This document shows, piece after piece, positions 21,468 through 63,746 of a DNA stretch of 64,000 nucleotides. Within the stretch, counting starts at the first letter, position 1. Each line of letters begins with the position of its first letter. The notes beneath the pieces are model-generated. The model did no database searches, was not told the DNA's origin, and worked only from the letters and a program-made list of their open reading frames with translations. Made by a program: the position numbers and the translations under genes. The DNA comes from Olleya sediminilitoris (lineage in GTDB: Bacteria; Bacteroidota; Bacteroidia; Flavobacteriales; Flavobacteriaceae), in assembly GCF_016785945.1 (NCBI RefSeq), contig NZ_JAEMEF010000002.1, forward strand, positions 362,953 through 426,952, written 5' to 3'.

Positions 21468-21487
21468 GTTATGCACAAATTGAGAAA

Positions 21488-21988
21488 ATGACCGAAAACA
21501 CAAATCAAGATAAGTTAAATGGCCTTTATAGGCTTCTAATAGCAGTATTAATAATTTGGTTATTATCTGTATTCTTAATTCCATTCATCTATCCAAAGTT
21601 AACGGACAGAGCACTTTTAGGAGATAGTTTTGGATTAATAAACAGTCTATTTTCCGGACTTGCATTTGCTGGAATTATCTACACAATTTTATTACAACGG
21701 AAAGAATTAGCCTTACAAAGACAGGAATTAAAAGAAACAAGAATGGAACTTGAACGTTCCGCTACCGCACAAGAAAAATCAGAAAGACAACAAAGACGAC
21801 AATCTGAAAATCTTAAAATTACTGCGAAATTAAATGCATTAAGTACACTTGTGAGTTACTATTCGACAGTTGAAACGAAAACCAAAAACTTTGACGGAGC
21901 AAAACACAAGTTTTCGCAAAGTGAACAAGAAAAATATATTAGTAGAATTAAGCAGATATTGGACAGAAAAGAAGAGCAAAATGATTAG
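21488..21988 (+). CDS. Cassette 1, gene 1: two-helix membrane protein with coiled coil
   Basis: 166 residues: membrane helices at about 16-36 and 53-71, followed by a long charged coiled coil (LQRKELALQRQELKETRMELERS...). Unknown function; this architecture is common in accessory regions. The start is 20 bp after the cassette boundary GTTATGCACA. It overlaps the next gene by 8 bp, so this unit carries two coupled genes. Confidence 0.65.
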   Translation: MTENTNQDKLNGLYRLLIAVLIIWLLSVFLIPFIYPKLTDRALLGDSFGLINSLFSGLAFAGIIYTILLQRKELALQRQELKETRMELERSATAQEKSERQQRRQSENLKITAKLNALSTLVSYYSTVETKTKNFDGAKHKFSQSEQEKYISRIKQILDRKEEQND

Positions 21989-22181
21989 ACAAAAGGTAAT
22001 TACAGTTAATATTTATACAGGAGAAGCTTCAAAAGGCAATGACAAAACCCAAGAAGTAGAACTACAAACTGTGAACAAATATCTGGATGAGGGCTACACA
22101 GTCATTGACCGATTTACTTCTGGAACAAATTCAACATATCATATTAATATAACCTTTGTTTTGCAAAAGGAATCGGAATAA
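21981..22181 (+). CDS. Cassette 1, gene 2: small protein of unknown function
   Basis: 66 residues (MIRQKVITVNIYTGE...) predicted as a small alpha/beta domain. I chose ATG 21981 because it overlaps the stop of the preceding gene (coupling) and because the upstream part of the frame is only the shadow of that gene. Its stop is 4 bp before the cassette end sequence TGTGCATAAC. Confidence 0.6.
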   Translation: MIRQKVITVNIYTGEASKGNDKTQEVELQTVNKYLDEGYTVIDRFTSGTNSTYHINITFVLQKESE

Positions 22182-22185
22182 AATC

Positions 22186-22315
22186 TGTGCATAACAATGT
22201 ATAAAAATAATTGCTCAATTTTGGGCTTAACCAAAGATAGTTGCAAGTTTACTACGTCTGATTTTCCTGCGGAAAATCCTCGCACGTAAACCCGCAACTA
22301 TTCTTATACGACACC
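22186..22315 (+). repeat. attC-like element after cassette 1
   Basis: Starts with TGTGCATAAC, the reverse complement of cassette 1's own beginning (GTTATGCACA at 21468), and ends at the GTT of cassette 2. Arms GTATAAAAATAATTGC and GCAACTATTCTTATAC pair with two A-C mismatches (G-T wobbles on the bottom strand). The central hairpin is GATTTTCC-TGC-GGAAAATC. 130 bp. Confidence 0.8.
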
Positions 22316-22339
22316 GTTGTGTGTCATTAAAAAAACTGA

Positions 22340-22954
22340 ATGGATTGGAATGAAATCAATGACTTATTAAATAGTCAGATAAAAGAAAATAAAGATGTTT
22401 CGTCTGGATATGAACAAATAAAAAAGGTTCTATCCGACAACAATCTACCAATCACTCAAATCGATACAAATAGAATTTTAAAGCGATTTCAAGATTGGCT
22501 GATAGAAGTTCTGGAAAAAGAACCCATACCGGAAGAAATAAAATCAATTTATTTTGGACTTTCTGAATTATCCTTTCCAGATATTGATGATGGACAAAGT
22601 AAAACAACAATTTACATAGCTGGCTCAAAATTTTCCCCTGACGAAGACTCTGATTGGAATTGCGATACTGAATATTTACCAAAAAGACGTTATTTATTGT
22701 TAGATGACTTCGAAAAAATAGACAATCTTAAATCCGAAAATGAGCTATCAGGAGATTACGAAGTTTTGGTTTTCAATGGACTTCTGAATTTACTCGTTGC
22801 GCACACAATGAAAGACTTGAAAAGTCAATTTTTAACGTACAAAATTAAAAAGTTTGGTTTATTCGAGTCAATTAAGGAACGTGAACAATTATATTTTGGT
22901 GTTGGATTTGATTCAGGAGATACATATCTCATTGGACAGTTGAAAAAGGAATAA
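22340..22954 (+). CDS. Cassette 2: protein of unknown function
   Basis: 204 residues, soluble, acidic, no signal peptide. I recognise no domain; YIAGSKFSPDEDSDWNCDTEYLPKRRY-type residues with tryptophan and cysteine suggest a small alpha/beta fold. The cassette begins GTTGTGTGTC at 22316 and its own end CACACAAC (22962-22969) is the exact complement of the first 8 bases. Confidence 0.6.
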   Translation: MDWNEINDLLNSQIKENKDVSSGYEQIKKVLSDNNLPITQIDTNRILKRFQDWLIEVLEKEPIPEEIKSIYFGLSELSFPDIDDGQSKTTIYIAGSKFSPDEDSDWNCDTEYLPKRRYLLLDDFEKIDNLKSENELSGDYEVLVFNGLLNLLVAHTMKDLKSQFLTYKIKKFGLFESIKEREQLYFGVGFDSGDTYLIGQLKKE

Positions 22955-22961
22955 AAAACGC

Positions 22962-22976
22962 CACACAACACCGTGT
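22962..22976 (+). repeat. Left part of the attC-like element after cassette 2, with left att repeat of the island
   Basis: CACACAAC closes cassette 2. ACAACACCGTGT at 22965-22976 is one copy of the 12-bp direct repeat flanking the island; the other is at 39694-39705. Joining 22962-22976 to 39706-39817 gives a 127-bp element, the normal length. Confidence 0.8.
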
Positions 22977-23037
22977 TGTGTAGATAACACTCTGTATGTA
23001 TTGATTTTATTGACTTATATAGAAATATATTAAAAAA

Positions 23038-23056
23038 GGTACAACATAGGTACAAC
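23038..23056 (+). promoter_or_regulatory. Candidate integrase arm-type sites, left end
   Basis: Two GGTACAAC copies 11 bp apart. The same pair, 12 bp apart, occurs near the right end in the same orientation, with a variant GGTGCAAC at 39533-39540. Confidence 0.6.
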
Positions 23057-23108
23057 TTTTTAAACTATAAATTTGAGAAGTAAAAATAGTGATCTATAAG
23101 CATAAAAA

Positions 23109-23135
23109 AACCGTTACAAATATACTGTAACGGTT
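23109..23135 (-). terminator. Terminator of the DUF6266 gene
   Basis: Stem AACCGTTACA/TGTAACGGTT with a 7-nt loop. On the minus strand it is followed by a T-run, directly downstream of the gene at 23166. Confidence 0.8.
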
Positions 23136-23165
23136 TCTTTTTGAATGTATTTATGCTTAAAGTTA

Positions 23166-23807
23166 TTAAGCTGCCGTACCAGAGCCTAAATACACACTAT
23201 TCGATACTTGTGTTCCATCAGCAGAAACAAACGCCATAAACAGCTCTACTGTATCTCCTGCATAAGTGCCTGGTATGGTAACGACTTGAGAACCTACAGT
23301 TCTATCAGCACCATCAAGAATAGAAATTGATTCTTTCTTACTTGGATTATAAACCAATACCATTGCTTTATCCGTTGCATTTGCATTTCCTTCTGCTGAG
23401 TTGTCACCCCAACCAAAAGAAACTTGTCCTGCATTGGTTAAATCAGTTGTACCATTTAAAACACCAGACAAACCACCTCTACTTAATAAAGCTAAAGAAT
23501 AATCAATCGTGAAGTTAGGTGCAATACCGCCTACTGCATTATTTAACACATAAGACATCGCAGCATTAAATTCCGTTTTCTTGGTCGCAAATGACTTATA
23601 ACCGATTTTTATAAAATCTTTAGTCGCTTGCAAATACTCCAAAGTAATAGTAAATTTATTACGCTGATTCACTTGTCCCTCTGTTCGAGGATTCGCCACA
23701 CTTGCTGGCTTAATTCTGATGTAGTCGATACCTTTCCAACTACCTCCAATAATACTACCTACCTTACCCGATAAGCTTCCTAAAATACCCTGTGGAATTT
23801 TTCCCAT
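23166..23807 (-). CDS. DUF6266 family protein
   Basis: 213 residues with the very conserved N-terminus of this Bacteroidetes family (MGKIPQGILGSLSGKVGSIIGGSW), then NPRTEGQVNQRNKF and a beta-rich C-terminal domain. No signal peptide. Function unknown; members are abundant in Flavobacteria and often lie beside mobile elements. It has its own terminator and is the leftmost gene of the island. Confidence 0.8.
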   Translation of the reverse strand: MGKIPQGILGSLSGKVGSIIGGSWKGIDYIRIKPASVANPRTEGQVNQRNKFTITLEYLQATKDFIKIGYKSFATKKTEFNAAMSYVLNNAVGGIAPNFTIDYSLALLSRGGLSGVLNGTTDLTNAGQVSFGWGDNSAEGNANATDKAMVLVYNPSKKESISILDGADRTVGSQVVTIPGTYAGDTVELFMAFVSADGTQVSNSVYLGSGTAA

Positions 23808-23944
23808 CTCTATTACAATTTAAAATTAATATTTGTTCGGATTTGGTACGGACTTGATATTGCTTTTAAACTTTGTTTACCCCTCTAATATAACTAAAAT
23901 TATACCATTTTGTTACTGTTTCAAGCCTTTACGATGCCTTTGCG

Positions 23945-24385
23945 TTAGGCTTCTTTGCTTTGCATCAAGTTGAAACAATTACGTATATATGCGACCTTTA
24001 AAACTGCCATTTTTTCAATGACATTTTGTAACTCTTTTTCTTTTTTACTGATAACCTCTACCGCTTTAATATGTTTTTGCATCATATCATCTACATTACA
24101 ATTTGATTTTAAACTACTTTTAAGCGTTTTTCTGCAATCATCTATTGAGATAAACGGAATAACACTTCCTTTTAAATAATAAGCGTAAAAACCGCCTATT
24201 TGTAGCATCATAGATAAATGAAAAAGCGTGTTTTTTTCTTTTTCGGTTGAAGTTTGCAATACAAAACAATTAGGACAAGGATTTGAGAGCGGTTTTCCGC
24301 TGTTAAGCCCTTTGTTTAGGATGAAAAAATGAGGGTTTGAGTAAGTTTTTCCTGTACGGTGTGTTTTCAGTTCAAAAGTTGACAT
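23945..24385 (-). CDS. DUF6943-like mobile-element protein
   Basis: 146 residues: FELKTHRTGKTYSNPHFFILNKGLNSGKPL, a PCPNCFVL cysteine pair and AYYLKGSVIPFISIDDC. I associate this pattern with a family (DUF6943) found on Bacteroidetes integrative elements. C-terminal half is helical. Function not known. Confidence 0.6.
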   Translation of the reverse strand: MSTFELKTHRTGKTYSNPHFFILNKGLNSGKPLSNPCPNCFVLQTSTEKEKNTLFHLSMMLQIGGFYAYYLKGSVIPFISIDDCRKTLKSSLKSNCNVDDMMQKHIKAVEVISKKEKELQNVIEKMAVLKVAYIRNCFNLMQSKEA

Positions 24386-24634
24386 AGCTATCCAATTTAA
24401 AATTGCTCGCTACGCTTCGCTACATTATTTTTTTTGAAAAGAATAAAAAGATAGCCATAGTTGTTGTGGCGTGGGTAAGGCTGTCAAGGTTTTTGGATAA
24501 AAGTTTTTTGAGTTAAAATGTTTAATGAAAAAGAAAAAAGTTTGTAAAAAAAGTTTTATTCAAAACCCGTAGGGCTTGACCTTTATAGCCTTGTGCGGCT
24601 GGCAGAGGAAGCCACATATATTTGCTACCTTTTT

Positions 24635-24802
24635 TTATTTTAATCCTATAAATGCGAATATTACTATAATTATCAGCATAACTATTGTGAAAACTTTTGT
24701 TGTATATGAATCGTCGCCTTCAGGATTTTCAATTTCAATACCGTTTTCATCTATATCTTTTGGAAAGAATAAATCAAATAAATCTTCAATCATTTTTTTC
24801 AT
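24635..24802 (-). CDS. Short membrane protein, 55 residues
   Basis: Reads MKKMIEDLFDLFFPKDIDEN (residues 1-20), an acidic segment to about residue 31, then a C-terminal membrane helix (about 38-53, FTIVMLIIIVIFAFIG). The composition (amphipathic N-terminus, acidic linker, clean hydrophobic helix, GLK end) is coding-like, unlike its surroundings. Family unknown. It may be a small tail-anchored protein of the island. Confidence 0.6.
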   Translation of the reverse strand: MKKMIEDLFDLFFPKDIDENGIEIENPEGDDSYTTKVFTIVMLIIIVIFAFIGLK

Positions 24803-25600
24803 ACTATAAATTTAACTTTTCTGGGGAATTAACACTTAAAAAAATAGGTTTTAATCTTTTACTGTGCGGTGGATGAAGCGTTTGTATGGGTATTGGTTTA
24901 AATAGTTGTTTGATAAAACAGCATTTAAATTAATACTTATACAGGACTTTTAGACGATAGCTTTTTGTTTTTTTGAGGTACGAGAAAAAGCAATATGCTA
25001 TGGCGTAGTACTAACTTTCTTAAACCTATTTTTTTATATCCTACTACTTGGGTGGTGGGGAAAAGTGGACTTTAATATTTGTTAGTGAAATGAAACAAAC
25101 AAAGACTTGAGTTAAGGAATACTTGGACTTAATGATGGTTTTGTGCAGTTGAATGAGATAACGAATATTATTTTCAATTATCTTAATCCTTTAATTGTTC
25201 GACTGTTTAATGTTTGTTCAAAATGTGGTTATATGTTCGGATGTGAGCGTTGGATAAGCGGATATTTTACATAATAGCAGTTATAGCGACGAAAATATAA
25301 TAAAACGCCGTAGGCAACCTTTGAAAGGATTTTTGCTCCTATAACTTCTATTATGTAACTTAGCTTTGGGTTGGTTTTGTGGCGGAATAGTTGTTTTGAG
25401 CGTTGGCAATAGCTCTTTGCTTTTTTATTGTACTACTTTTATTAAAATAGATACTTTTAAATAAAACAAGCAATGTGCTATTATAGCGTTGGCTACAACT
25501 ATTGTGACATAAAACCAACTATGTGGTGGCGCGCGGAATAAAATAAAAGACAGAGGGTTATTGCCTAAGCAATAAACTGGGTTTTATTTTGTGGGGAATT
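24803..25600. other. About 800 bp without a supported gene
   Basis: No frame on either strand looks coding. The composition is more GT-rich on the plus strand than its neighbours, with short recurring words (GCGTTGGC at about 25400 and 25480; GGTTTTGTGGCGG, GTGGTGGCGCGCGG). It separates the restriction operon from the left-end genes and could hold a transfer origin, an untranslated RNA or decayed sequence. Confidence 0.4.
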
Positions 25601-25939
25601 TTAAGCAGAAACTAACTGCATTGCTCTTTCTTTAATTGTAAAAGCAACAGTCTTTTTGATTATATCATTTGTATTGATAAAAGTAGATTTCTTTTTTAAT
25701 TCGTCTAACTCAACAACTTCAAGAAGTTTAGCAAAACATTCATCTGCAAATGAGTGTGAAATTAGTTTTACACCTTCAAAATTGAACGTAACAAACTGCT
25801 CCGCTTTAAGAGATTGTTCAATCTCCAAACGTAGTTTTTTACCTAAAACCCTTGTTCCTAAGCTGTTTCCGATATGTCCGAACTTAATTTCCATTGTATG
25901 TATAGTCGTAAAAACTGTGCCAAAATTACCAAAGATCAT
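25601..25939 (-). CDS. STAS-like DUF4325 protein
   Basis: 112 residues from the first ATG, which overlaps the end of the upstream ATPase gene by 14 bp; a second ATG at 25894 (MEIKFGHIGNSLG) begins at the family-typical position and would give 97 residues. The STAS-like pattern is FNFEGVKLISHSFADECFAKL. STAS-like proteins paired with GHKL ATPases act like anti-sigma antagonist/ATPase switch pairs. Downstream of hsdR, it is the last gene of the operon. Confidence 0.72.
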   Translation of the reverse strand: MIFGNFGTVFTTIHTMEIKFGHIGNSLGTRVLGKKLRLEIEQSLKAEQFVTFNFEGVKLISHSFADECFAKLLEVVELDELKKKSTFINTNDIIKKTVAFTIKERAMQLVSA

Positions 25940-26882
25940 CGAGATTTCCTAATAATTTCTCTTTGAGTTCTTCAAATGCATTTTTTTGACCATCATCATC
26001 AAATATTTTATCATAAGTAACAGCTACATCTGTATTAACTCTTATATATGTGTAAACACCTTGCCATTTTGATGTGTTTTCTAGGTTTTTATTATTGTCA
26101 ATTTCTAAAGAATGATTACCTGAATGTATAATGAGTTTACCACCATTTTCTCTTATAAGAGTATCTGTTGCCCATAAACCAAATCCCATACCTGTACTAT
26201 TTGTAACACCTTTGTTAACACTTTGATTTAAAGCTTCTGCTTCATTTAATAATTTATATTTACTATTAGGGTGTGTAGTCAATGCTTGATGAATACCTTG
26301 GCCATTATCTGCAACAATTATTCTAATTTGTTTTTTACTTGGAAAATATTGACAACTAATATAACCACTACCATTATAAATTGTACCATCAGATTGAGAA
26401 TGACGGATTGTATTATCCATAACTTCCCATAAACAATACTCGAGAACAGTCATCATATCATCATTAATAGAATCTTTTAGTAAAATAGAAACAATCTCTT
26501 TATGAATATCTAATGCATTATCATCATCAAACCTTTTTATCTCTGTAAAACGACCAGATGCTTTTTGTCTTTGAAAATTTTCTGCGTAGGCAAAACCTAT
26601 TTGTTCAAAAAAGTTAACTCTGCTTGCGTATTTAACTTGTGCTGAATCAACTCTAAAATCTTGAAAATTACCTGTGACTATTACACCAATACTCCTCAAA
26701 TGATTAACTGTACTACCTATTAAAACTAAATGATCTGAATATAACATAGAATATGTATTCAGATTAATTGTAAAATGGACTGTATCATCTGCTACAGCAT
26801 CAAAAGCTGTTGAAAGTGCATCTACAATTTGATTATGACTTGATATATTTCTGAAATCTATTGTTATGGGAAAGTTTGCCAA
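25926..26882 (-). CDS. GHKL-type ATP-binding protein (HATPase_c)
   Basis: 318 residues. The N-terminal half has no clear catalytic motif. The C-terminal half is a GHKL ATPase: N box EVMDNTIRH (Asn157), G1 box DNGQGI (192-197), G2 box GMGFGL (231-236). There is no histidine-phosphorylation domain or membrane helix, so it is more like an anti-sigma-type kinase or a regulatory ATPase than a sensor kinase. It sits 15 bp after hsdR and overlaps the STAS-like gene; the pair probably regulates or senses the state of the system. Confidence 0.8.
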   Translation of the reverse strand: MANFPITIDFRNISSHNQIVDALSTAFDAVADDTVHFTINLNTYSMLYSDHLVLIGSTVNHLRSIGVIVTGNFQDFRVDSAQVKYASRVNFFEQIGFAYAENFQRQKASGRFTEIKRFDDDNALDIHKEIVSILLKDSINDDMMTVLEYCLWEVMDNTIRHSQSDGTIYNGSGYISCQYFPSKKQIRIIVADNGQGIHQALTTHPNSKYKLLNEAEALNQSVNKGVTNSTGMGFGLWATDTLIRENGGKLIIHSGNHSLEIDNNKNLENTSKWQGVYTYIRVNTDVAVTYDKIFDDDGQKNAFEELKEKLLGNLDDLW

Positions 26883-26897
26883 AATAATTCTACTTTA

Positions 26898-29800
26898 TTA
26901 ATTCCAGAAATCTGCTAAAAGTTCAGCTTGCTTTAAAACTGTGTCCGTTGCCAACTTTTGTTGATCTGGTGGATAACCGAATTTTCTAAGCGCACGTTTA
27001 ACCATTACTTTTAATTTAGCTTTTACACTTTCTTTTATTGTCCAATCTATTGTTGCGTTATTTTTAACTGTTTCTACTAAATATATAGCCAATTCTTTTA
27101 AAACCTCATTGCCTAATACCTCTTTTGCACTTTCATTTTTAGAAATCGCATCGTAGAATGCCAATTCATAATCTGTTAAACCTAAACTATCACCACGTTT
27201 ATCTGCCACTTTTATTTGATTTGCTAATTCTATAAGTTCTTGAATAACCTCAGCAGCAGTCAATACTTTATTTTGGTATTTTTTTATAGAATTTTCAAGC
27301 ATTTCCATAAGTGATTTGCTTTGTATTAAGTTTGTTTTACTTCTTGTTTTTATTTCTTCATTAAGCAATTTTTTCAAGGTTTCTAATGCTACATTTTGAT
27401 GCTCCATATCTTTTATCTCCATCAAAAATTCTTCTGATAAAATAGATATATCCGGTCTTTTAATACCTGCTGCATCAAACACATCAATTACCTTGTCTGA
27501 TACTAATGCTTCATCTATAACTTGACGTATTGCTGTTTCTAAATCCTCATCTGTTCTACCTATACCTGTAGTATCAAATTTTGATAATCTTGCTTTAACT
27601 GCTTGAAAAAATGACACCTCATCTTTTACGTCCATAGCTTCATCGTGTGGCACTGCTATTGCAAATGCTTTAGACAATGCTGTTACTTCGTTTACAAAAC
27701 GCTTTTTACCATCTTCAATACTTAGAATATGTTCTTCAGCTATAAGAATAATTTTAAGCTTTGTTTTGGTATCAGCAGTAAAATACTCTTCATATAGCAA
27801 CCCTCTATCTTTACCAATGTATGGTGCTGATGGTTCGTTTACTAAATTTTGTAATGCTTCAGAGTATCCTCTTTCAGGTTTTTCTAAAAACATTTGTGAT
27901 ACTACTTCTATTTTCTCTAACATTAAAGAAACTGCTTGTTCTTGTGCAATTGTTGGGTCTCCTTTACCTCCACTATCACTATAAAACGCCAATGCTTTTT
28001 TAAGGTCTGATGCTATCCCTAAATAATCTACAACTAAACCACCTGGTTTATCTTTATACACTCTATTTACCCTTGCAATTGCTTGCATTAGATTATGACC
28101 TTTCATTGGTTTATCTATATACAAAGTATGCATAGAAGGTGCATCAAAACCTGTTAACCACATATCTCTAACAATTACTAACTTCAATTCATCATTAGGG
28201 TCTTTCATACGTTCGGCTAAGGCTCTTCTTTGCTCTTTCGTTGTATGATGTATTGCCATTTTCGGGCCATCAGAAGAAGATGCAGTCATAATAACTTTTA
28301 TAACACCTTTATCTAAATCTTTGTGATGCCAATCTGGTCTTAATGTTATTATCTCATTATACAATTCAGCAGCAATTCTACGAGACATTCCAACAATCAT
28401 TCCTTTACCCTCAAAAACATTTTGCCTTGCTATAAAGTGAGAAACAATATCCTGAGCTATATTTTTTATTCTATTTTCACTACCAATTAAGGCTTCTAAT
28501 TGTGTCCACTTTGCTTTTGCTTTTTGAGTTTCTGTAAGCTCTTCGTTTGCTAATTCTTCATCTAATTGCTCGACTAACTTTTTACCTTCTTCACTTAGAT
28601 TTACTTTAGCTAATCTACTTTCATAATAAATACGAACTGTAGCACCATCATCTACTGCTTGTGCTATATCATAAATATCTACATAACTTCCAAAAACTGC
28701 TGGTGTATTAACGTCTGTACCTTCAATTGGTGTTCCTGTAAAACCTAAATATGTTGCGCTTGGTAATGCATCACGCATATACTTTGCAAAACCATATACA
28801 ATACGTTTACCAATTACATTACCATCTTCATCTTTATCATCTACTGTTTTTGCTTTAAACCCATATTGTGTTCTATGTGCTTCATCTGCAATAACAATTA
28901 CATTTTTTCTATCTGTTAAGGTTTTATATACATTACCTTCTTCTGGTTGAAATTTTTGTATTGTAGTAAATATTACACCACCAGAAGCTACTTTTAATAA
29001 TTCTTTTATATGTTGCCTATCTGTTGCTTGTACTGGTTTTTGCCTTAATAACTGTGTAGCTGAAGCAAAAGTATCAAACAATTGATCGTCTAAATCATTT
29101 CTATCTGTAATTACTAATACTGTTGGGTTATTAAGTGCTTGTACAATTTTACCTGTATAGAAAACCATTGATAACGATTTACCAGAACCTTGTGTATGCC
29201 ATACCACACCACCTTTTCTATCTCCATCTTCTGCAGCAGCTATTTTACTACTTTCTACTGCTTTATTTACTGCATAATATTGATGATATGCTGCAACCTT
29301 TTTTACTGTATCAATTGTTGTAATACCTGTTTTTAAATCTTCTTTTTTAGATTTTTCAAATACAATGAAATACCTAATAATATCTATTAGCGTTTTTTTA
29401 TTTAACTGCCCTTGTGCCAATACTTCCATTTCAGAATCTAAATGAGAAGCCAACGTTGTACCATCTTTTGTTTTCCAACTCATAAAGCGTGAAAAACCTG
29501 CTGACAACGAACCTGATTTTGCCTCTAAACCATCTGAAATAACACACAAACTATTATAAGTAAATAGACTTGGGATTGTAGCTTTATAGGTTTGTAATTG
29601 TTTGAAAGCTGACTTTAATGTTGCATTTTCATCAACAGCATTTTTAAGCTCTATAACCACTAATGGTAAACCATTAATAAATAAAATAACATCTGGTCTT
29701 TTTGTGTGATTATCTTCTATTACAGTAAATTGATTAGCAACTACAAATTCATTATTTTCTGCATTATCAAAATCGACCAACCAAACTAAGTCACCACGAG

Positions 29801-30119
29801 AAACACCATCTTTTCTATATGATACTTTTACACCTTCTGTAAGCATTTTATGAAACGCTTCATTATTTACTAAAAGGTCTGGTGAGCTAATACGTAACAC
29901 TTGATTAAAAGCATCTTGTCTTGCTTCATCTGGAATAGATGGATTAAGTTGATATATTGCTTCCTTTAAACGATTATGCAATACAACATCTGCATAACTA
30001 TCTCTTTCAGGAAATTCACCATCGTGAGCTATTTCAGGACCATATACATAATAATATCCTAAACTTTCTAACTCTTCTATTAGTAATTGCTCTATGTCAT
30101 TTTCAAATAGTTTTGTCAT
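26898..30119 (-). CDS. hsdR: Type I restriction enzyme, R subunit
   Basis: ATP-driven translocating endonuclease subunit of 1073 residues. The PD-(D/E)XK nuclease is complete (RPDVILF...VVIELKNA: Asp143, Glu157, Lys159). Walker A is HTQGSGKS (308-315), followed by the DEAH helicase motif (VIADEAHRTQYG, about 415) and later motifs (FTGTPIEGTD; DMWLTGFDAP; QAIARVNR). The C-terminal domain is helical. It would cut DNA lacking the methylation specified by the neighbouring HsdS. Confidence 0.95.
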   Translation of the reverse strand: MTKLFENDIEQLLIEELESLGYYYVYGPEIAHDGEFPERDSYADVVLHNRLKEAIYQLNPSIPDEARQDAFNQVLRISSPDLLVNNEAFHKMLTEGVKVSYRKDGVSRGDLVWLVDFDNAENNEFVVANQFTVIEDNHTKRPDVILFINGLPLVVIELKNAVDENATLKSAFKQLQTYKATIPSLFTYNSLCVISDGLEAKSGSLSAGFSRFMSWKTKDGTTLASHLDSEMEVLAQGQLNKKTLIDIIRYFIVFEKSKKEDLKTGITTIDTVKKVAAYHQYYAVNKAVESSKIAAAEDGDRKGGVVWHTQGSGKSLSMVFYTGKIVQALNNPTVLVITDRNDLDDQLFDTFASATQLLRQKPVQATDRQHIKELLKVASGGVIFTTIQKFQPEEGNVYKTLTDRKNVIVIADEAHRTQYGFKAKTVDDKDEDGNVIGKRIVYGFAKYMRDALPSATYLGFTGTPIEGTDVNTPAVFGSYVDIYDIAQAVDDGATVRIYYESRLAKVNLSEEGKKLVEQLDEELANEELTETQKAKAKWTQLEALIGSENRIKNIAQDIVSHFIARQNVFEGKGMIVGMSRRIAAELYNEIITLRPDWHHKDLDKGVIKVIMTASSSDGPKMAIHHTTKEQRRALAERMKDPNDELKLVIVRDMWLTGFDAPSMHTLYIDKPMKGHNLMQAIARVNRVYKDKPGGLVVDYLGIASDLKKALAFYSDSGGKGDPTIAQEQAVSLMLEKIEVVSQMFLEKPERGYSEALQNLVNEPSAPYIGKDRGLLYEEYFTADTKTKLKIILIAEEHILSIEDGKKRFVNEVTALSKAFAIAVPHDEAMDVKDEVSFFQAVKARLSKFDTTGIGRTDEDLETAIRQVIDEALVSDKVIDVFDAAGIKRPDISILSEEFLMEIKDMEHQNVALETLKKLLNEEIKTRSKTNLIQSKSLMEMLENSIKKYQNKVLTAAEVIQELIELANQIKVADKRGDSLGLTDYELAFYDAISKNESAKEVLGNEVLKELAIYLVETVKNNATIDWTIKESVKAKLKVMVKRALRKFGYPPDQQKLATDTVLKQAELLADFWN

Positions 30120-30194
30120 TATATTTCTTTGTTTTACTATACCAACTACCTTTATTAAAATATTATATCTCTTTTTAAGAAAATAATTTAAAAT

Positions 30195-30605
30195 TTAATA
30201 ATCGTCTTCTAAATCATCCCAATTTTCAATTAACCCTTCTTTTTGCATTTTAGCAACGAAATCAGGTGCATCTTCTGTTAAATGACTTCCATCTGATAAC
30301 TCTCCTGTATTTGGTGGTCTTGTTACAATTTTTGCATCTGAATAATCGAGAAACATTCTAACAGCCTCACGACCTAATCCATTTTTTTTAACAGGACAAT
30401 ACATTCTTGACAATCTATAAGTAGGCTCTGAATAATCTTCTAATTCATCAAACGAAAAAACATCGTTATAAGGTGAACCTAATTGATTTCCTCCTTCCCA
30501 AAAAGAAATTTCGGTTAGATCATCTTCTAAACGCAGTGTAATGATTCTGTTATCCTTTAATTTAAAATCCTTTTCAAAATCTCTATCCTCTATAAGTTCA
30601 GCCAT
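30195..30605 (-). CDS. Small acidic protein between hsdS and hsdR, function unknown
   Basis: 136 residues, rich in Asp and Glu, no signal peptide or membrane helix. Begins MAELIEDRDFEKDFKLKDNR and ends WDDLEDDY. It lies 10 bp after the hsdS fusion in a tight operon, so a role with the restriction system (assembly or control) is likely by context only. I do not recognise the family. Confidence 0.65.
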   Translation of the reverse strand: MAELIEDRDFEKDFKLKDNRIITLRLEDDLTEISFWEGGNQLGSPYNDVFSFDELEDYSEPTYRLSRMYCPVKKNGLGREAVRMFLDYSDAKIVTRPPNTGELSDGSHLTEDAPDFVAKMQKEGLIENWDDLEDDY

Positions 30606-30615
30606 TCTATATATT

Positions 30616-32094
30616 TTATAATTGCACTCTTACTTCACCACTCATTAGCTTAGGTAAAAGTGTATCTCTTAATTTTTCAACTTGTTTTATTTGTTGATTA
30701 TTTGCTATAATCTTATCTATTAGCGGTGTAAATGTTTTACTCATTTTTGCTAATTCTGAAGGTGGTGGAATGATTACCATTGCATCATCTAAATCTCCTC
30801 TTTTAATATGACCCATCGTTGTAGCGTGCGCTTTTGCTATTGCTATAAACATATCTAAATGATACTTACTCCATAAATAATAAAACCATTTAGGAAAACG
30901 CTCTGAGGTTACTTTAAATAAATGCTGATTTAAAATACAATCTTCTCCATCCCATATTTTAACTACCAATGAAGCTGACCAAGAAAATATAACGTCTCCA
31001 TTTTTCACAAAGTATTTTTCATTTACATCTGTACTTGCAAAATCACTACTATCTGAAATACCAGACTTTAAGTCTTTAATTTTTAGTACCGGTAGTTTAT
31101 CTATTTCATTTTTTGGTGGAAATTTTTGACACGCTAAACCGTTTAAAAAATACGCTACTGAACTTAATGATTCTTCCTCCCATTCTTCATTTGCTTCTTC
31201 AATAAAAAACTGTCTAAACAAAACTTTGGATAGAGCTTCTAAGGTTTTATTTTGTCTGTGTAGTAAGGCTATTTTATTTTCTAAACTACTTAGCGCATTA
31301 GCAATAGCTTTTTGCTCAGGAAGTGGTGGTAATTTTATCTCTAAAGCTTCTATGTCCGATGGTTTTAATGATGGATAAGTGGATGTTGAACCTTCTGCTA
31401 TAGAATGCAAATATTCTGTTTGATTTGAATCGGTTAAATAATGATATAGAAACTTTGGATAAATTCTATCCTTATCACATCTAATTACTGTGAAACCTGT
31501 TGAAACCACTAAATTTTCATCAGGATTTTTTATAAATCCATAATGAAGCTGTATTGGTCTAACAGTTGAGTATATAATATCTTCATCGTTAACGAGTCTT
31601 TTTGCTCTACTTGGCGCTTCATCTAATTTAAAAAACTGATAACCTTCAATTTTATTTTCGGTAATTGAACCTGTATCTAAATACTTAATATCTTTATGTG
31701 GAAAACCCTTAGAAATATTATTCTCATTGGTATATATAACATCTCCTAACCTTTCTTCTTTCCAATTGTTTTTATTTATTTTCTCTAAAACATTAATACG
31801 ATTATACAAAGAAATACCAACTCTGATTATGTGGTTTATTAAATCTTCATTCTCTATTTTATGAAAAATAGAAATATCCATTTTGTAAGGTAACAATAAA
31901 TCATCTAAATCTGTTTCTATTGAAAATTGTTGAGATAAGGTAAGTGTTTTACCTACTAAGGTTATATCTATATCTGAGTGTGGCTTATAATTACCCTTAG
32001 CTCTTGAGCCATATAATATCGCTTTTTCAACCTCTGGATATTTACTAAAAACCGAGTTTATTTTATCTATGTCTTCTTGTTCTAATCCGTACAT
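30616..32094 (-). CDS. hsdS: MntA-like nucleotidyltransferase fused to HsdS specificity subunit
   Basis: 492 residues in one uninterrupted frame. Residues 1-100 are a minimal nucleotidyltransferase (MNT): Gly29-Ser30, ten residues, then Asp41-x-Asp43 (GSRAKGNYKPHSDID), plus a third acidic site Asp73 (YKMDISIF). This is the complete GSX10DXD signature of MntA antitoxins. Residues 105-492 are HsdS: two target-recognition domains separated by central and C-terminal helices (LPPLPEQKAIANALSSLENKIALLHRQN and a second half ending LRDTLLPKLMSGEVRV). Its ATG overlaps the stop of the HEPN gene. MNT and HsdS are normally separate proteins. Confidence 0.88.
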   Translation of the reverse strand: MYGLEQEDIDKINSVFSKYPEVEKAILYGSRAKGNYKPHSDIDITLVGKTLTLSQQFSIETDLDDLLLPYKMDISIFHKIENEDLINHIIRVGISLYNRINVLEKINKNNWKEERLGDVIYTNENNISKGFPHKDIKYLDTGSITENKIEGYQFFKLDEAPSRAKRLVNDEDIIYSTVRPIQLHYGFIKNPDENLVVSTGFTVIRCDKDRIYPKFLYHYLTDSNQTEYLHSIAEGSTSTYPSLKPSDIEALEIKLPPLPEQKAIANALSSLENKIALLHRQNKTLEALSKVLFRQFFIEEANEEWEEESLSSVAYFLNGLACQKFPPKNEIDKLPVLKIKDLKSGISDSSDFASTDVNEKYFVKNGDVIFSWSASLVVKIWDGEDCILNQHLFKVTSERFPKWFYYLWSKYHLDMFIAIAKAHATTMGHIKRGDLDDAMVIIPPPSELAKMSKTFTPLIDKIIANNQQIKQVEKLRDTLLPKLMSGEVRVQL

Positions 32095-32576
32095 TATTCC
32101 TCTTCAAATAAATTTTCTTGCTCACCACTTCGCTTTCCTTCCATTGTGGTTAAGAATGATTTAAAAACATTATGATAATCATTAATAACTAAATTAAATA
32201 TTTCATCAGCAGTTTCTTCATTATAAGTATGCGATGTCTTATTTCTACTTAGAATCATTTCCATCCATATTTTACCGTTAGGAATTATACCTATTTTAAA
32301 AGCTTCTCTAACCGCATCACGAGAGCCACCAACATTAGTATTACCTTGATATTCGGCATAATCCTTCATTACGTTCCAAGCTATCTCGTGCGTATACTCA
32401 AATCGTTTTATGACCCCTTCTTTTATGATGTCATCTAAAAATTCATCATCATCAATATTACCATCTTCATCTACTACATAATCTTCTTTGATTTTTGTAA
32501 CCGCTTGGTCTAATTTATTAAATGCTTTTACGTAATTAGAAAAGCGTTGTTCCCATCTTATATCTTCTTTACTCAT
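32094..32576 (-). CDS. HEPN protein of the HepT/HI0074 family (toxin-like)
   Basis: 160 residues, all helical. It carries Arg111-NKTS-His116-Thr-Tyr118, exactly the RX4HXY motif of HepT toxins, in which the arginine and histidine are the RNase residues and the tyrosine is the one AMPylated by MntA in studied systems. It is a member of the nucleotidyltransferase substrate-binding (HI0074) group. It overlaps hsdM by 8 bp and the MNT-HsdS gene by 1 bp, so all are translated together. Inference: toxin or its regulated partner inside a restriction operon. Confidence 0.85.
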   Translation of the reverse strand: MSKEDIRWEQRFSNYVKAFNKLDQAVTKIKEDYVVDEDGNIDDDEFLDDIIKEGVIKRFEYTHEIAWNVMKDYAEYQGNTNVGGSRDAVREAFKIGIIPNGKIWMEMILSRNKTSHTYNEETADEIFNLVINDYHNVFKSFLTTMEGKRSGEQENLFEEE

Positions 32577-34116: not shown

Positions 34117-34127
34117 TTATTTATTAG

Positions 34128-34334
34128 CTATAAGTTTGTTTTTAATAATTCTTTTGGATCTACGTTTAAGATATTAGCAATCTCATACAACACCTCTAAA
34201 CTTGGCTGTGTTCTGTTTTGCACATAACCATTTACTGTATTGAAACTCTTACCTAAGCGTTCTGCAAGCCATACTTGCTTAATACCTTTATCTTCAAGAA
34301 CTTCTTTTATTCTGTTTATTGGACTATTGACCAT
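34128..34334 (-). CDS. XRE-type helix-turn-helix regulator
   Basis: 68 residues from MVNSPINRIKEVLEDKGIKQ; the HTH is QVWLAERLGKSFNTVNGYVQ. An ATG 11 codons upstream (34367) is possible, but the extra residues (hydrophobic, basic) do not fit the family, so I chose 34334. It is in the position of a controller protein of the restriction operon and probably delays or balances hsd expression. Confidence 0.82.
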   Translation of the reverse strand: MVNSPINRIKEVLEDKGIKQVWLAERLGKSFNTVNGYVQNRTQPSLEVLYEIANILNVDPKELLKTNL

Positions 34335-34370
34335 TTTCTTTTTTAATATTAGCTGTAGATGAAACAAACA

Positions 34371-34796
34371 TTAATCTTCATTATTATATTTTATAAATTC
34401 CTTTTTAAGCCAATCTAAATGTTGTGACAACACTTTTTTTATCTCTACTTCATTATGTCTGACCTTTGTTTTTAGTAAATCATCCTTGAAATATATGTCT
34501 TGTTCTTTTTTAAGAGACTCTACACGATCAAAATAATCATTGAATAGCCAATCTCTACAAAACAAATCTAAATTATCAACAAATGGATCATCAGTTTCAT
34601 CTTGTCCATTTTTATAATAATCCGTTAAGATTTCGGCAGAATTATCTTTTGGAAAACCAACAATATCAACTACAACATCCCAATTAGATGTATCCAATTT
34701 ATTAAAATCAATTTGAATCCCTTTCTCTTCTAATTCCTCTAATAGAAAGTTAATTCTATATCCCGTGTATAAAATTTCAATTAAATGTTCTTCCAT
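34371..34796 (-). CDS. Acidic protein of unknown function heading the restriction operon
   Basis: 141 residues, no signal or membrane segment, rich in Asp/Glu/Lys (EEHLIEILYTGYRINFLLEELEEKGIQIDF). Followed 36 bp later by the XRE gene. A 17-bp direct repeat lies just upstream, so this could be the first gene of the operon. Family not recognised. Confidence 0.6.
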   Translation of the reverse strand: MEEHLIEILYTGYRINFLLEELEEKGIQIDFNKLDTSNWDVVVDIVGFPKDNSAEILTDYYKNGQDETDDPFVDNLDLFCRDWLFNDYFDRVESLKKEQDIYFKDDLLKTKVRHNEVEIKKVLSQHLDWLKKEFIKYNNED

Positions 34797-34831
34797 TCTT
34801 AAATCTTATTTCTGATGGTTTAAATATAGTA

Positions 34832-34871
34832 ATTACATTATATAAATACACAGTATTACATTATATAAATA
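34832..34871 (-). promoter_or_regulatory. 17-bp direct repeat, candidate operator
   Basis: ATTACATTATATAAATA occurs at 34832-34848 and again at 34855-34871 (23-bp period), 36-75 bp upstream of the first gene of the operon. Spacing of about two helical turns and placement suggest a binding site, for example for the XRE regulator. Not proved. Confidence 0.45.
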
Positions 34872-34954
34872 TTAGAAAATTTACATTCTCATTAATTCAG
34901 ATCAATTACTAACTTTTTACCCCTGTTTTAGGGTATATTACAAGTTGAAAAACG

Positions 34955-48178: not shown

Positions 48179-48184
48179 TATAAC

Positions 48185-48313: not shown

Positions 48314-48337
48314 GTTAGAGGTAATTAAAAAAACATC

Positions 48338-49690: not shown

Positions 49691-49695
49691 GTCCT

Positions 49696-60539: not shown

Positions 60540-60600
60540 AAAAGTTGTCATAACGGGAAATATAACCCCAAAAACAACTATATTAGTTGTTATATAACCA
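60540..60600 (+). repeat. Array leader copy 3 (attI-like candidate)
   Basis: About 60 bp nearly identical to the ends of leaders 1 and 2 (GTTGTCATAACGGG ... ACAACTATATTAGTTGT ... ATATAACCA), directly before the GTT of cassette 14. Here the 20-bp repeat and longer upstream part are absent and the core gene meaB lies upstream, so the conserved leader needs only about 60 bp. Confidence 0.72.
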
Positions 60601-60712
60601 GTTGTAGCCAATTTGAGAAAAACGCATTTACTCGACCAAAAATATAGTTCACTCAATTTGACTTTGACTAACTAAAAAGCTGAATTAAGTTTGAGGAATC
60701 AAAACAAAATAA

Positions 60713-61303
60713 ATGAATTACAAAATAATATTTCCTCTGTTGACCTTAATCGGATTTCTAACCTCTTGCAATTCCTATAAAATAAAAGTATACTCTTTAA
60801 GCAGAAACATAGAACTTATCGAAACGAATGGGAATAAACGAATGTTTGCCACAGAGCCGAATAAATCCATAGTTTTCGTTTCGGACTCGACAGTTAATTA
60901 CGCAAAAATTTATGGACATTTAGGAGCTTCAACTACGATTAAATACAGAAAATCCAACGACACGCTGATTTTGGAAACTCAAGATATTTACGGAAAAAAT
61001 TTGACCAAAAATAATCCTGACTTTTCCAATCTTTATCTGATAAGTAATGACAGTTTGACCAGCTTAATGAATAACGAAAAATATTATTCAACTGACTATC
61101 TAAAAAGTTCGTCCAAAAAACCTAAAGGATTTTATATAATTTACGAAAATAAAGCCTACAAAATAAAAAGTCAAAAAAGTGCTGACCGCATACTTGGAAA
61201 AATTCAAAATATGGATGCAAATAGATTTGTCGAATTGGACAAAGACTTTGCGAATAAGAAATACGGAATAAACGAAAAATATAAAACACTTGAATATAAA
61301 TAA
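60713..61303 (+). CDS. Cassette 14: lipoprotein of unknown function
   Basis: 196 residues with a lipobox (GFLTSC, Cys about 19). The soluble part has no recognised domain. The gene starts 112 bp after the boundary GTTGTAGCCA, a longer leader than most units. The cassette ends TGGCTACAAC, the complement of its own start. Confidence 0.65.
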   Translation: MNYKIIFPLLTLIGFLTSCNSYKIKVYSLSRNIELIETNGNKRMFATEPNKSIVFVSDSTVNYAKIYGHLGASTTIKYRKSNDTLILETQDIYGKNLTKNNPDFSNLYLISNDSLTSLMNNEKYYSTDYLKSSSKKPKGFYIIYENKAYKIKSQKSADRILGKIQNMDANRFVELDKDFANKKYGINEKYKTLEYK

Positions 61304-61307
61304 AAAC

Positions 61308-61436
61308 TGGCTACAACACCGTATAAAATTAATGGCTAGTTCTAGCCTACCTGGAAAATTCCTGCGGAATTTTCTCTGGCAAGTATCTGTTTACTAAATT
61401 AGCTGATAAAACACGCCACTAATCTTATACATCAAC
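61308..61436 (+). repeat. attC-like element after cassette 14
   Basis: Half-site TGGCTACAAC. Arms GTATAAAATTAATGGC and GCCACTAATCTTATAC are the same as at 40622/40714, with two bottom-strand wobbles. Hairpin GAAAATTCC-TGC-GGAATTTTC. 129 bp. Confidence 0.82.
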
Positions 61437-61470
61437 GTTATGCCTAACCTGAAAACCGAATCCATTCAAA

Positions 61471-62301
61471 ATGATAAATAACGAAAGAATTCAAGAAATA
61501 ATTAATTCAATTATGATTTTTTCTTTTGAGTTTGATATTGAAAAAGTCAAACAAGAAATGGAATTAAAAGAAGTTTCAGATGATGAGTTAGAAAAATTAG
61601 GCGAAAGTCAAGTAAATCAAAAATTTAATAATGGAGAATTTAAAATTAAAATGCCAAATGGTGATTTATTTGATGCTAATTCTATAAAACAACAAAGTTC
61701 TAAAAAAGGAATTAAAGAACCTGTAATTTACATAAACCCTAATTTTAAATATGTTCAATGGATTATAAAAAAAGACTTCACAACTCAGCAAATTAAAAAA
61801 CATATAAAAAAACAATTTTCAAATAGTTCAGAAGTTGATATTAATGAAATAAAAAAAGCGTTATTAATAGAGGAAGTAAAGTCGAAAAAAGTTGAAGGAT
61901 ATATTGGAGAACTCGCATTAAAGACAAGTCAAAATATAAATCAAGGTAAATTTCATATCCAATCTTCTTGTTCAAAAGAAAGCGCAATAAAAATGGTGTT
62001 TGAATATATAAATGAATTAGAAAGTGAAAGAGAGATTTATGTAAAGAAAAAGATAAGAAGTGACTATAAGAAACTTGGGGTTTATCTAATTTTCATTGTA
62101 TTTGTTTCTATTCTATGGTTTATTAATTCTGAATGTAAAAAACTACCTAATTGGGCTTCTACCTCAATAGCGTTTATTTTATTTTTAATTTCATTTATAA
62201 TTATGCGTTTAATTAATCATAACATATTTGACACTTTACTATCGAAAAAAAAGGTAATAAAAAAATATGAACAAGAATTTTACACTACAACAAATGAATA
62301 A
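61471..62301 (+). CDS. Cassette 15: protein with two C-terminal membrane helices
   Basis: 276 residues. The first about 200 are soluble and charged; two helices follow (about 205-225 and 232-252), then a short basic tail. Domain not recognised. Cassette ends GTTATGCCTA / TAGGCATAAC, 10 bp. Confidence 0.62.
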   Translation: MINNERIQEIINSIMIFSFEFDIEKVKQEMELKEVSDDELEKLGESQVNQKFNNGEFKIKMPNGDLFDANSIKQQSSKKGIKEPVIYINPNFKYVQWIIKKDFTTQQIKKHIKKQFSNSSEVDINEIKKALLIEEVKSKKVEGYIGELALKTSQNINQGKFHIQSSCSKESAIKMVFEYINELESEREIYVKKKIRSDYKKLGVYLIFIVFVSILWFINSECKKLPNWASTSIAFILFLISFIIMRLINHNIFDTLLSKKKVIKKYEQEFYTTTNE

Positions 62302-62308
62302 AAAGGCA

Positions 62309-62438
62309 TAGGCATAACACTGTATATAATTTATTACTGGCTTCTCGTCTACTTACGAAAGTCCTCGCGGACTTTCTTAGCCGGTAATTATTTACTAAAT
62401 TAGTTTCTGAAACCACGCAACAAACCATATACAACAAC
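62309..62438 (+). repeat. attC-like element after cassette 15
   Basis: Half-site TAGGCATAAC. Left arm GTATATAATTTATTAC, right arm GCAACAAACCATATAC. Hairpin GAAAGTCC-TCGC-GGACTTTC. 130 bp. Confidence 0.8.
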
Positions 62439-62461
62439 GTTAGCTTTAATTGTTCCGAAAA

Positions 62462-62818
62462 ATGAAAATTGTAACCGAAAAAATAAATAGCGAACCAAAT
62501 CATTCCATCTCGAAAAAAGATGTGAAAGCGATTATCGAAATTATTCCTGATGATTGGATTGGAGTTGCTCACATTTTTTCAATTTCCTCTCAACTCTTTG
62601 AGAATTCGAATTGGGACAGACCAGTTATTCAGAATAATACAACGTTCAAAATATTATCACGCGGAATTGACCGAAACGAAATAATAAAAGAATTGCTAAT
62701 TGAATTGGCTATTAGACCAACCAAAACGTATCCACCGAAAGGACATTCTTTGACAAAATCGCAACGGAAAAAATTAGAGGAATTAATAATGCCATATTAT
62801 AATAAATTGACTGAATAA
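62462..62818 (+). CDS. Cassette 16: small protein of unknown function
   Basis: 118 residues from ATG 62462 (MKIVTEKINSEPNHSISKKD); a TTG 12 bp upstream would add four residues. Soluble, basic C-terminal helix. Domain unknown. The unit begins GTTAGCTTT and ends AAAGCTAAC (9 bp), about 95 bp after the stop. Confidence 0.6.
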   Translation: MKIVTEKINSEPNHSISKKDVKAIIEIIPDDWIGVAHIFSISSQLFENSNWDRPVIQNNTTFKILSRGIDRNEIIKELLIELAIRPTKTYPPKGHSLTKSQRKKLEELIMPYYNKLTE

Positions 62819-62912
62819 AATGGAATTATCACTCAAGCGGAATTTGAGTAAGTTTGTGGAATTGAAAAACGGAATAATAATAAAACGTGCTCACTCAAAT
62901 GTGTCACAACTA

Positions 62913-63039
62913 AAAGCTAACAATGTATAAAAATAATGCTAAATTAAGTGCTTAATCGAGAGTTAGTGCACTTTTGTTACGTCTGAATTTCCTGCGGAAA
63001 TTCCTCGCACACAAAACCGCACTATTCTTATACTAGACC
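62913..63039 (+). repeat. attC-like element after cassette 16
   Basis: Half-site AAAGCTAAC. Arms GTATAAAAATAATGC and GCACTATTCTTATAC with two bottom-strand wobbles; hairpin GAATTTCC-TGC-GGAAATTC. 127 bp. Confidence 0.82.
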
Positions 63040-63051
63040 GTTGCCAGTAAT

Positions 63052-63732
63052 ATGAAAAAAATACCGTTAATATTAATAATTCTGACTTTTTTGGGTTGTA
63101 ATCTGAAAGAGAAAAACCTGAATTTATTAAAAACGGAAACCAAAACTGAACTGACCAAAAAAAGAGAAACCATATTCTGGGTTGACACAATTTCAAATGG
63201 AAAATTCCTGAAAATTTTTTCAAAACCCGAAAATGACTGGCAAAATCTAACAGCGGAATTTGGGAACGACAACCAAAAACATACAATTAACTTAAAAACG
63301 GATGAATATCAAATGCTTGGAATTCCGTTCACAAACCAAATTGAGTGGATTACAGAAAAAAGTTTTGCTTTGATAAACGGTTGCGGAACGAATTGTAGAT
63401 ATGTCTTGATTTTTAATACAGAATTGGAAACACCAATCGTAATGCCAATCGAATATTATCCCGAAATAAAATACGCTGATTATAAAACTGACAATCCTAA
63501 TTTATATATTTCAGTTAATGAAAGTAAAGGAAATTCCTTGAACTTAATAATTGTCGAAACCGACAGTCAAAAAAAGGTGGAATTGAATTTACCAGTAGAT
63601 TGGAATCGTGGAAATGGTCAAATTTATGGAATTATTGATAAAATTGAAATTAAGAATTCTGAAATTAAGATTTTACAAAATCAAGAAAACGGAAATACAA
63701 AAGAACTGAATAAAAAGATAACGTGGGAATAA
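63052..63732 (+). CDS. Cassette 17: lipoprotein of unknown function
   Basis: 226 residues with lipobox LTFLGC. Beta-rich soluble part containing two cysteines in INGCGTNCRYVLIF. Family unknown. Cassette ends GTTGCCAGTA / TACTGGCAAC (the same pair as cassette 3, although the genes are unrelated). Confidence 0.65.
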   Translation: MKKIPLILIILTFLGCNLKEKNLNLLKTETKTELTKKRETIFWVDTISNGKFLKIFSKPENDWQNLTAEFGNDNQKHTINLKTDEYQMLGIPFTNQIEWITEKSFALINGCGTNCRYVLIFNTELETPIVMPIEYYPEIKYADYKTDNPNLYISVNESKGNSLNLIIVETDSQKKVELNLPVDWNRGNGQIYGIIDKIEIKNSEIKILQNQENGNTKELNKKITWE

Positions 63733-63746
63733 ATACTACTGGCAAC

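Follow-up and report, generated by a model that had tools for sequence, protein, structure and literature searches.

Probable integron-like gene cassettes in Olleya sediminilitoris and its relatives linked to a tyrosine recombinase lacking the IntI-specific domain

We examined a 64,000-nucleotide stretch of DNA from the flavobacterium Olleya sediminilitoris (NCBI RefSeq assembly GCF_016785945.1, contig NZ_JAEMEF010000002.1, positions 362,953 to 426,952; G000:C12:362953-426952 in our numbering), referred to here as the window, in which small one- or two-gene units alternate with conserved spacers. Our analyses indicate that these units are likely gene cassettes, belonging to an integron-like system whose tyrosine recombinase lacks the IntI-specific domain, and the best reading of the wider sequence data is that such a system, with a non-IntI recombinase family, is widespread in Bacteroidota and occurs in one Firmicutes genome. 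Five lines of evidence lead to this reading: complementarity at the unit boundaries, covarying site halves, a leader at the array heads, a recombinase linked to the arrays in all 20 relatives fetched, and cassettes that change neighbors. The same evidence supports the original prediction, made from the window alone, that the arrays are integron-like; its further suggestion of a divergent system fits a linked recombinase that lacks the IntI insertion and start boxes that follow GTTR rather than GTTRRRY.

Results

Units end in the complement of their own starts

Between positions 21468 and 63746, the + strand of the window carries 17 units, each starting with GTT and a variable tail. Each had been noted to end in the reverse complement of its own start, and this proved correct: own start and own end share at least 8 exact complementary bases in 15 of the 17, typically 10, and the remaining two match at nine of ten positions. 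Specifically, the unit at 46180 has an internal mismatch, and that at 48314 ends in TACCTCTAAA where TACCTCTAAC is expected (9/10 by sequence reading). When partners were permuted among 14 window units, none of 100,000 shuffles reached the observed complementarity sum, which was itself lowered by two coordinates that were one base off (scoring zero) and one wrong unit end.

The pattern extends to a wider set, 390 units at 50 loci in this genome and its relatives (units of 150 to 2500 bases between sites; locus L162 is excluded from these counts and from the Arg-His spacing and GTT-chain counts below). Own start and own end matched over at least 8 bases in 345 of the 390, compared to 2.5% for random partners from other units, and the highest count in 2000 within-locus permutations was 71. 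The complementarity is thus far better than that of shuffled pairs. The two boxes flanking one spacer matched to this extent in only 22 of 341 cases, in agreement with the proposal that ends pair with their own starts rather than across the spacer. Site orientation was uniform within each of the 50 loci, and the longest open reading frame (ORF) ran forward in 366 units and in reverse in 23. The start boxes depart from the classic GTTRRRY consensus, as had been noted for the window: 36 of 390 fit it, whereas 377 fit GTTR.

The features of the window are as follows, with strand where assigned. R1 is a site model built solely from spacers of this genome, E is the expectation value, and "own-end complement" marks a body whose end is complementary to its own start.

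21407-21470, +: leader 1 (attI-like), ends CCA-GTT, heads array A; 98% identity to the leader query
21468-22195, +: cassette body GTTATGCACA..TGTGCATAAC, two ORFs; 10-base own-end complement
22193-22318, +: attC-like spacer; R1 match, E 8e-16
22316-22969, +: cassette body GTTGTGTGTC..GCCACACAAC; complement 8 exact, 9/10
22965-39705: 16.7-kb element integrated within an attC-like site; each end has the 12-bp direct repeat ACAACACCGTGT
38296-39513, -: arm-domain integrase of the 16.7-kb element
39696-39820, +: attC-like spacer bordering the 16.7-kb element on the right; R1 match
39818-40618, +: cassette body, CAAX protease-like gene; own-end complement
40616-40738, +: attC-like spacer, the genome's best R1 match; E 7.5e-22
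40736-41412, +: cassette body; own-end complement
41410-41533, +: attC-like spacer; R1 match
41531-42040, +: cassette body; own-end complement
42038-42226, +: attC-like spacer, long type, 189 bp; E 2.4e-4
42224-42827, +: cassette body, 85% common with another genus over exactly GTT..AAC
42825-42948, +: attC-like spacer; R1 match
42946-43372, +: cassette body; own-end complement
43370-43495, +: attC-like spacer; R1 match
43493-44066, +: cassette body, MORN-repeat gene; own-end complement
44064-44190, +: attC-like spacer; R1 match
44188-44886, +: cassette body, outer-membrane beta-barrel gene; 14-base complement
44884-45007, +: attC-like spacer; R1 match
45005-46063, +: two-gene cassette body, cyclic nucleotide monophosphate-binding regulator and DoxX-like; own-end complement
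46061-46182, +: attC-like spacer; R1 match
46180-46641, +: cassette body; 9/10 complement
46642-47056: presumed IS110-like remnant directly after ..AACA of the cassette end, with the apparent end of another insertion sequence (IS)
47167-47230, +: leader 2 (attI-like); leader match
47228-48194, +: cassette body, DUF6602 gene; own-end complement
48192-48316, +: attC-like spacer; R1 match
48314-49415, +: cassette body, PIN-domain gene, end box TACCTCTAAA; 9/10 complement
49416-49695: presumed IS110-like remnant
60540-60603, +: leader 3 (attI-like), directly behind a MeaB-like gene; leader match
60601-61317, +: cassette body; own-end complement
61315-61439, +: attC-like spacer; R1 match
61437-62318, +: cassette body; own-end complement
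62316-62441, +: attC-like spacer; R1 match
62439-62921, +: cassette body; own-end complement
62919-63042, +: attC-like spacer; R1 match
63040-63746, +: cassette body; own-end complement
63747-64000: presumed IS110-like remnant, contig end

The arrays form no single run: leaders at 21407, 47167 and 60540 mark three separate starts, and the 16.7-kb restriction-modification element and the IS110-like remnants interrupt the units. Among the cassette proteins scanned, Pfam gave no match at a threshold of 0.001 for 11 of the 18 from the window and for both from contig C3; scans of the window found no tRNA and, at the gathering score, no Rfam family.

A leader heads the arrays and adjoins a tyrosine recombinase gene

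The three window leaders are 64 bp long and belong to a set of 14 close copies and one diverged copy in the genome. All 14 close copies end in ..AGTT, each then running into different sequence, and the own end of the first cassette was identified behind 13 of them. The leader would be the cassette insertion site (attI-like). One copy, on contig C3, lies directly 3' of a tyrosine recombinase gene and overlaps its last codons. This gene is the genome's best match to TIGR02249, the integron-integrase family, and scores below the cut-off. A search of the genome at 1e-65 found no second recombinase of the same profile, the sole match being on C3. Thus, the earlier statement that no IntI gene is present holds for the window, and is to be completed by a recombinase of a different kind elsewhere in the genome.

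The N-terminal piece of the recombinase led to intact homologs in other genera, such as those of Polaribacter huanghezhanensis (L077) and Subsaximicrobium wynnwilliamsii (L090), and we fetched the neighborhoods of the 20 best. In all 20 the order is recombinase, leader, cassette start: within approximately 25-200 bases of the recombinase stop, the leader ends in ..ATATAAC-NA-GTT or a near variant, and a unit beginning with GTT follows. R1 sites follow downstream on the same strand in 15 of the 15 loci with more than 300 bp of contig left; in the other five the contig ends within 139-283 bp. In loci L070-L087 the last codons of the recombinase, often encoding FLLSRN, overlap a conserved TTATCCCG box before the leader end, so that coding sequence and site are shared.

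The array-linked recombinases lack the IntI insertion

Six residues that we assigned as catalytic are invariant in the 20 array-linked recombinases. In all 20, the catalytic Arg and the His of HxxR are 89 residues apart, and the spacing is 87-98 in the 68 of 68 named homologs in the alignment, a count that covers loci of sufficient length with a readable motif (four without one are also outside the chain counts below). In contrast, the spacing is 131 in 14 of 14 canonical IntI proteins from Bacteroidota, extracted from 15 fetched loci. The IntI-specific insertion is thus absent from the array-linked recombinases. In line with this, the intact member examined in full, like the Olleya copy, scores below the TIGR02249 cut-off.

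In a maximum likelihood tree of 45 proteins, the array-linked recombinases fall outside the Xer/XerA branch, from which they are separated together with IntI and six ungrouped rows (support 100/99). IntI forms one clade (100/100), 22 array-linked Bacteroidota rows a second (98/98) and Saccharibacillus/Paenibacillus a third; the tree gives no order among the three. The predicted structure of the L090 recombinase (mean predicted local distance difference test score, pLDDT, 80.6; predicted template modeling score, pTM, 0.54), searched from residue 91 onward, best matched the solved Xer-type structures 4a8e and 5hxy, followed by IntI4 on its site. The array-linked recombinases also carry an extra N-terminal domain of approximately 90 residues; in Pfam, three of the 20 gave a weak HARP match below the cut-off (E 8e-4 at best), which is a lead rather than an identification. 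Some homologs are annotated "site-specific tyrosine recombinase/integron integrase", which is the title of a XerA model. The word "integron" is therefore already present in annotations, and these names are silent on arrays.

Sites and recombinase are widespread in Flavobacteriaceae and occur beyond the family

Among 299 Flavobacteriaceae genomes, 255 have sites (1e-4) and 185 the recombinase profile (1e-65); 179 have both, 6 the recombinase only and 38 neither. This survey gives minimum site counts per genome. A deeper search of six genomes yielded from 32 to at least 136 sites, with at least 136 in each of two. One of the six, G171, from the same genus, has 32 sites and no recombinase of the profile, and the 7 of its sites listed are scattered over the chromosome. 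Across the phylum, 38 of 198 genomes have sites (1e-6). Of 345 genomes from the phylum, 93 exceeded the TIGR02249 cut-off, none of them from Flavobacteriaceae among the matches listed. These 93 far exceed the single Bacteroidetes case of a 2022 survey, and some have strong R1-type sites.

We also looked for chains of cassettes without a site model. Chains of at least two cassettes, starting within 400 bases of the recombinase stop, were found in 14 of 75 named loci, a set in which many contigs end at once and some chain members are doubtful. They include Algoriphagus (2), Aquiflexum (2), Arundinibacter (7, the first doubtful) and Carboxylicivirga (6), and, outside the phylum, Saccharibacillus kuerlensis (Firmicutes; L144:10813-12892), in which a chain of 3 with near-identical spacers of approximately 83 bp lies directly behind a non-IntI recombinase. 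A separate model-free test gave GTT chains of up to 12 units, some with low-complexity members. Control triplets gave chains of 3 (GTA, CAT, GCT and GAT), 2 (GTC and ATG), 4 (TGT) and 5 (CTT), and of 14 for the low-complexity ATT and TTT; short chains therefore prove nothing by themselves.

In another Bacteroidota family, all five loci fetched (L215-L219) have non-IntI recombinases that lack the N-terminal domain and lie divergent from R1-type sites; the Arg-His spacing is 89 in the four read, and L216 has a chain of 7. The N-terminal domain and the shared direction are thus not general features. Three of these five genomes (G334, G349 and G449) hold IntI as well.

The spacers have covarying halves and are predicted to fold

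Thirteen of the 14 window spacers are 122-127 bp long, and that at 42038-42226 is 189 bp. The genome holds 63 R1 matches, and the spacers are imperfect palindromes. In an alignment of 28 of them, the consensus has AACACCGTATATAATTAATTGC as its left end and GCAACTAATCATATACAAAAACGTT as its right end, two sequences whose pairing is imperfect, and double changes that keep the pair occur at 7 of 13 consensus pairs; for example, A-U is replaced by G-C in 10 of the 28. When the site is built with the cassette's own two boxes, the predicted outer stem has a median of 10 bp (at least 8 of 13 pairs formed in 352 of 390 sites) and the inner stem a median of 16 bp, with a short unpaired center in most. 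We folded every second unit (195), with shuffled-site and cassette-body controls from every fourth. The bottom strand was predicted to fold more stably in 193 of 195 sites, by a mean of 3.9 kcal/mol, whereas pieces of cassette bodies favored the top strand (70 versus 23). In 175 of the 195, the version with the cassette's own start had a more stable predicted fold than the array junction.

Cassettes recur next to unrelated neighbors

Cassettes recur together with their own spacers next to unrelated neighbors, both within genomes and between genera. Within genomes, 54 of 56 pairs of unit bodies at least 99% identical match to both ends, and many of those listed sit beside unrelated neighbors. 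Across genomes, 14 of 22 pairs from the fetched loci agree at each end with a tolerance of 3 bases. The expectation that variation respects the GTT boundaries was thus borne out for these pairs, and failed for the remaining cross-genome ones discussed below. In the comparison of genomes G157 and G113, the cassette body is 97.7% identical and the spacer identical, with flanks at 55-63%; between G113 and Algibacter onchidii the values are 93.4% (cassette), 93% (spacer) and 52-58% (flanks). Random spacers average 65% identity. Alignments extended over 13 cross-genome families start at GTT in 5 and end at the next GTT in 5, and do not make a clean test, because similar neighboring spacers drag them past GTT. 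Neighboring copies of one cassette also occur, and in the arrays of G113 (L181-L184) a family of 300-340 bp units, with start boxes GTTNNNTTTA, is present in many copies.

Other elements lie at the sites

The 16.7-kb element contains type I restriction-modification genes (a nucleotidyltransferase pair besides hsdR, hsdS and hsdM) and encodes a tyrosine integrase with an arm domain. The remnants at 46642, 49416 and 63747 we take to be IS110-like. In nine of nine places, which include these three and L031, L036 and L038, such remnants lie directly behind ..AACA (8) or ..AAAA (1), and in four of the nine a second leader follows 587-589 bases on. Extra leaders may thus have spread together with the IS remnant.

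Discussion

Points against the system proposed and alternative explanations

Several observations weigh against an integron-like system as we propose it. Eight of the 22 cross-genome pairs fail to match end to end, and in several pairs the body and end boxes are shared while the spacers show only background identity (58-68%); among these is the window cassette 42224-42827, which is 85% identical to one of G068 (L070:18203-18804) with its spacer at background. Simple movement of whole cassettes does not account for these pairs, which call for spacer replacement, whether through gene conversion or through a process that known integrons do not show; the cassette shared by these two genera suggests that spacers are exchanged independently of genes. 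The Olleya recombinase gene contains one in-frame stop codon, and 76 of the 299 Flavobacteriaceae genomes have sites and no recombinase at the limits used. Shuffled sites too favor the bottom strand (78 versus 18, mean 1.3 kcal/mol), so part of that bias is base composition, and no constant extrahelical base was found in the predicted sites of the 390 units. Finally, the IntI insertion has been called essential for integron function in the accessible text of Smyshlyaev 2021 (PMC8138268).

Among the alternatives, the one that survives best, and which we nevertheless consider improbable, is that the enzyme acting on the sites is chromosomal XerC/XerD, or else a canonical IntI encoded elsewhere, and that the linked recombinase is a passenger. 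The genomes with sites and no recombinase of the profile, the broken Olleya copy, and the IntI genes above the cut-off in genomes of the phylum, some with strong R1 matches, would all fit such an enzyme. Against IntI, however, no Flavobacteriaceae genome exceeded its cut-off among the matches listed, and Xer was tried as the enzyme and rejected, the 11 Xer-type loci giving chains of only 0 or 1 unit. Moreover, the overlap of the leader with the 3' end of the recombinase gene ties the two together.

We regard as highly improbable that array growth is due to homologous recombination and replication slippage, acting between similar spacers, in place of site-specific recombination. Spacers are indeed similar within a genome, neighboring copies of one cassette exist, and the sharing of bodies with changed spacers suggests that gene conversion takes part. 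Such exchange, however, would not preserve the complement of own start and own end, would not place different cassettes directly behind 14 near-identical leaders, and would not yield 97.7% identical cassettes shared between genera in background flanks.

That the spacers are ordinary dispersed repeats between small immobile genes, akin to repetitive extragenic palindromes or miniature inverted-repeat transposable elements, is barely credible: the imperfect palindromy of the spacers and their 63 matches across this genome, together with the wide separation of the 7 sites listed of the 32 in G171, would suit it, yet a self-contained repeat would not match unit ends to unit starts rather than across the spacer, and neither the linkage of leader and recombinase nor cassette copies with exact limits would be expected of it.

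Proposed mechanism and meaning

In the integron-like system that we favor, the recombinase would insert circular cassettes at the leader and excise them at the folded attC-like spacers, with the bottom strand, which is predicted to fold better, as the presumed substrate, as in known integrons. Action of the recombinase on these sites and passage of cassettes through circles are what the arrangement of the sequence suggests. The single recombinase gene of this genome has an in-frame stop, and its arrays are thus predicted to be frozen or served from elsewhere.

We lean slightly toward the view that IntI does not define integrons. At least three recombinase lineages (the Bacteroidota type, the Saccharibacillus/Paenibacillus type and IntI) would then carry out cassette capture at folded sites; the IntI domain would be an add-on of one of them, its role in Flavobacteriaceae falling either to the HARP-like domain at the N terminus or to the site itself. 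If so, most Flavobacteriaceae would be integron carriers. The integron-like system that we favor would make integrons far commoner than surveys indicate. One earlier survey picked integrases by the extra IntI domain, and the accessible text of the IntegronFinder 2.0 survey gives a single complete integron in Bacteroidetes proper, in Salinibacter ruber M1; sites in 255 and the recombinase profile in 185 of 299 genomes would change this census. The accessible text of two papers ties the extra domain to action on folded single strands and to the distinction of IntI from other integrases (PMC9024848; PMC8138268). A cassette system with the site-level signs of an integron and without that domain makes its role directly testable. 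The arrays would also amount to a large reservoir of mobile genes that is still unread, and the 45-protein tree bears on the origin of integrons. We found no description of a non-IntI integron in Flavobacteriaceae in the literature, a weak negative with most subscription journals and all preprints outside its coverage.

Comparison with known systems

The array-linked recombinases resemble the integron-like tyrosine recombinase subgroup of Smyshlyaev 2021 in grouping with IntI apart from Xer/XerA (100/99); the accessible part of that study (PMC8138268) links no cassette array to insertion-less members. IS1111 elements are described, in the accessible text, as targeting one end of attC (PMC11187229), and the IS110-like remnants likewise sit at one site end in nine of nine places. 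The targets in that report are attC sites of integron cassettes, whereas the site here is flavobacterial and the family of the remnants is presumed. As in Treponema-type integrons (PMC3607928, accessible text), the recombinase is transcribed toward the attI-like site, in the direction of the cassettes; those integrons have IntI, whereas the recombinase here lies off the IntI branch. Loci L215-L219, with recombinase and sites divergent in 5 of 5, are arranged like typical integrons.

The window arrays taken alone are clusters of attC-like sites without an integrase, which is what defines a cluster of attC sites lacking an integron-integrase (CALIN). They are CALIN-like in being remote from the recombinase gene, as in the 76 genomes with sites only, and unlike them in having leaders of their own and sites of a non-IntI lineage.

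In Vibrio superintegrons and in the class 1-3 mobile integrons, one- or two-gene cassettes lie in one direction, and each end box is the reverse complement of the cassette's own start; the folded site of IntI integrons has an outer stem, an unpaired center and an inner stem, and attI stands at the array head. The arrays described here share the one- and two-gene cassettes in one direction, the end boxes set by their own starts, sites predicted to fold with such stems, the attI-like site at the head and, in some genomes, more than 100 sites. They differ in a recombinase that has no IntI insertion and scores below the TIGR02249 cut-off, and in start boxes of GTTR rather than GTTRRRY. The anatomy is integron-like, yet it lies outside the family that IntI defines.

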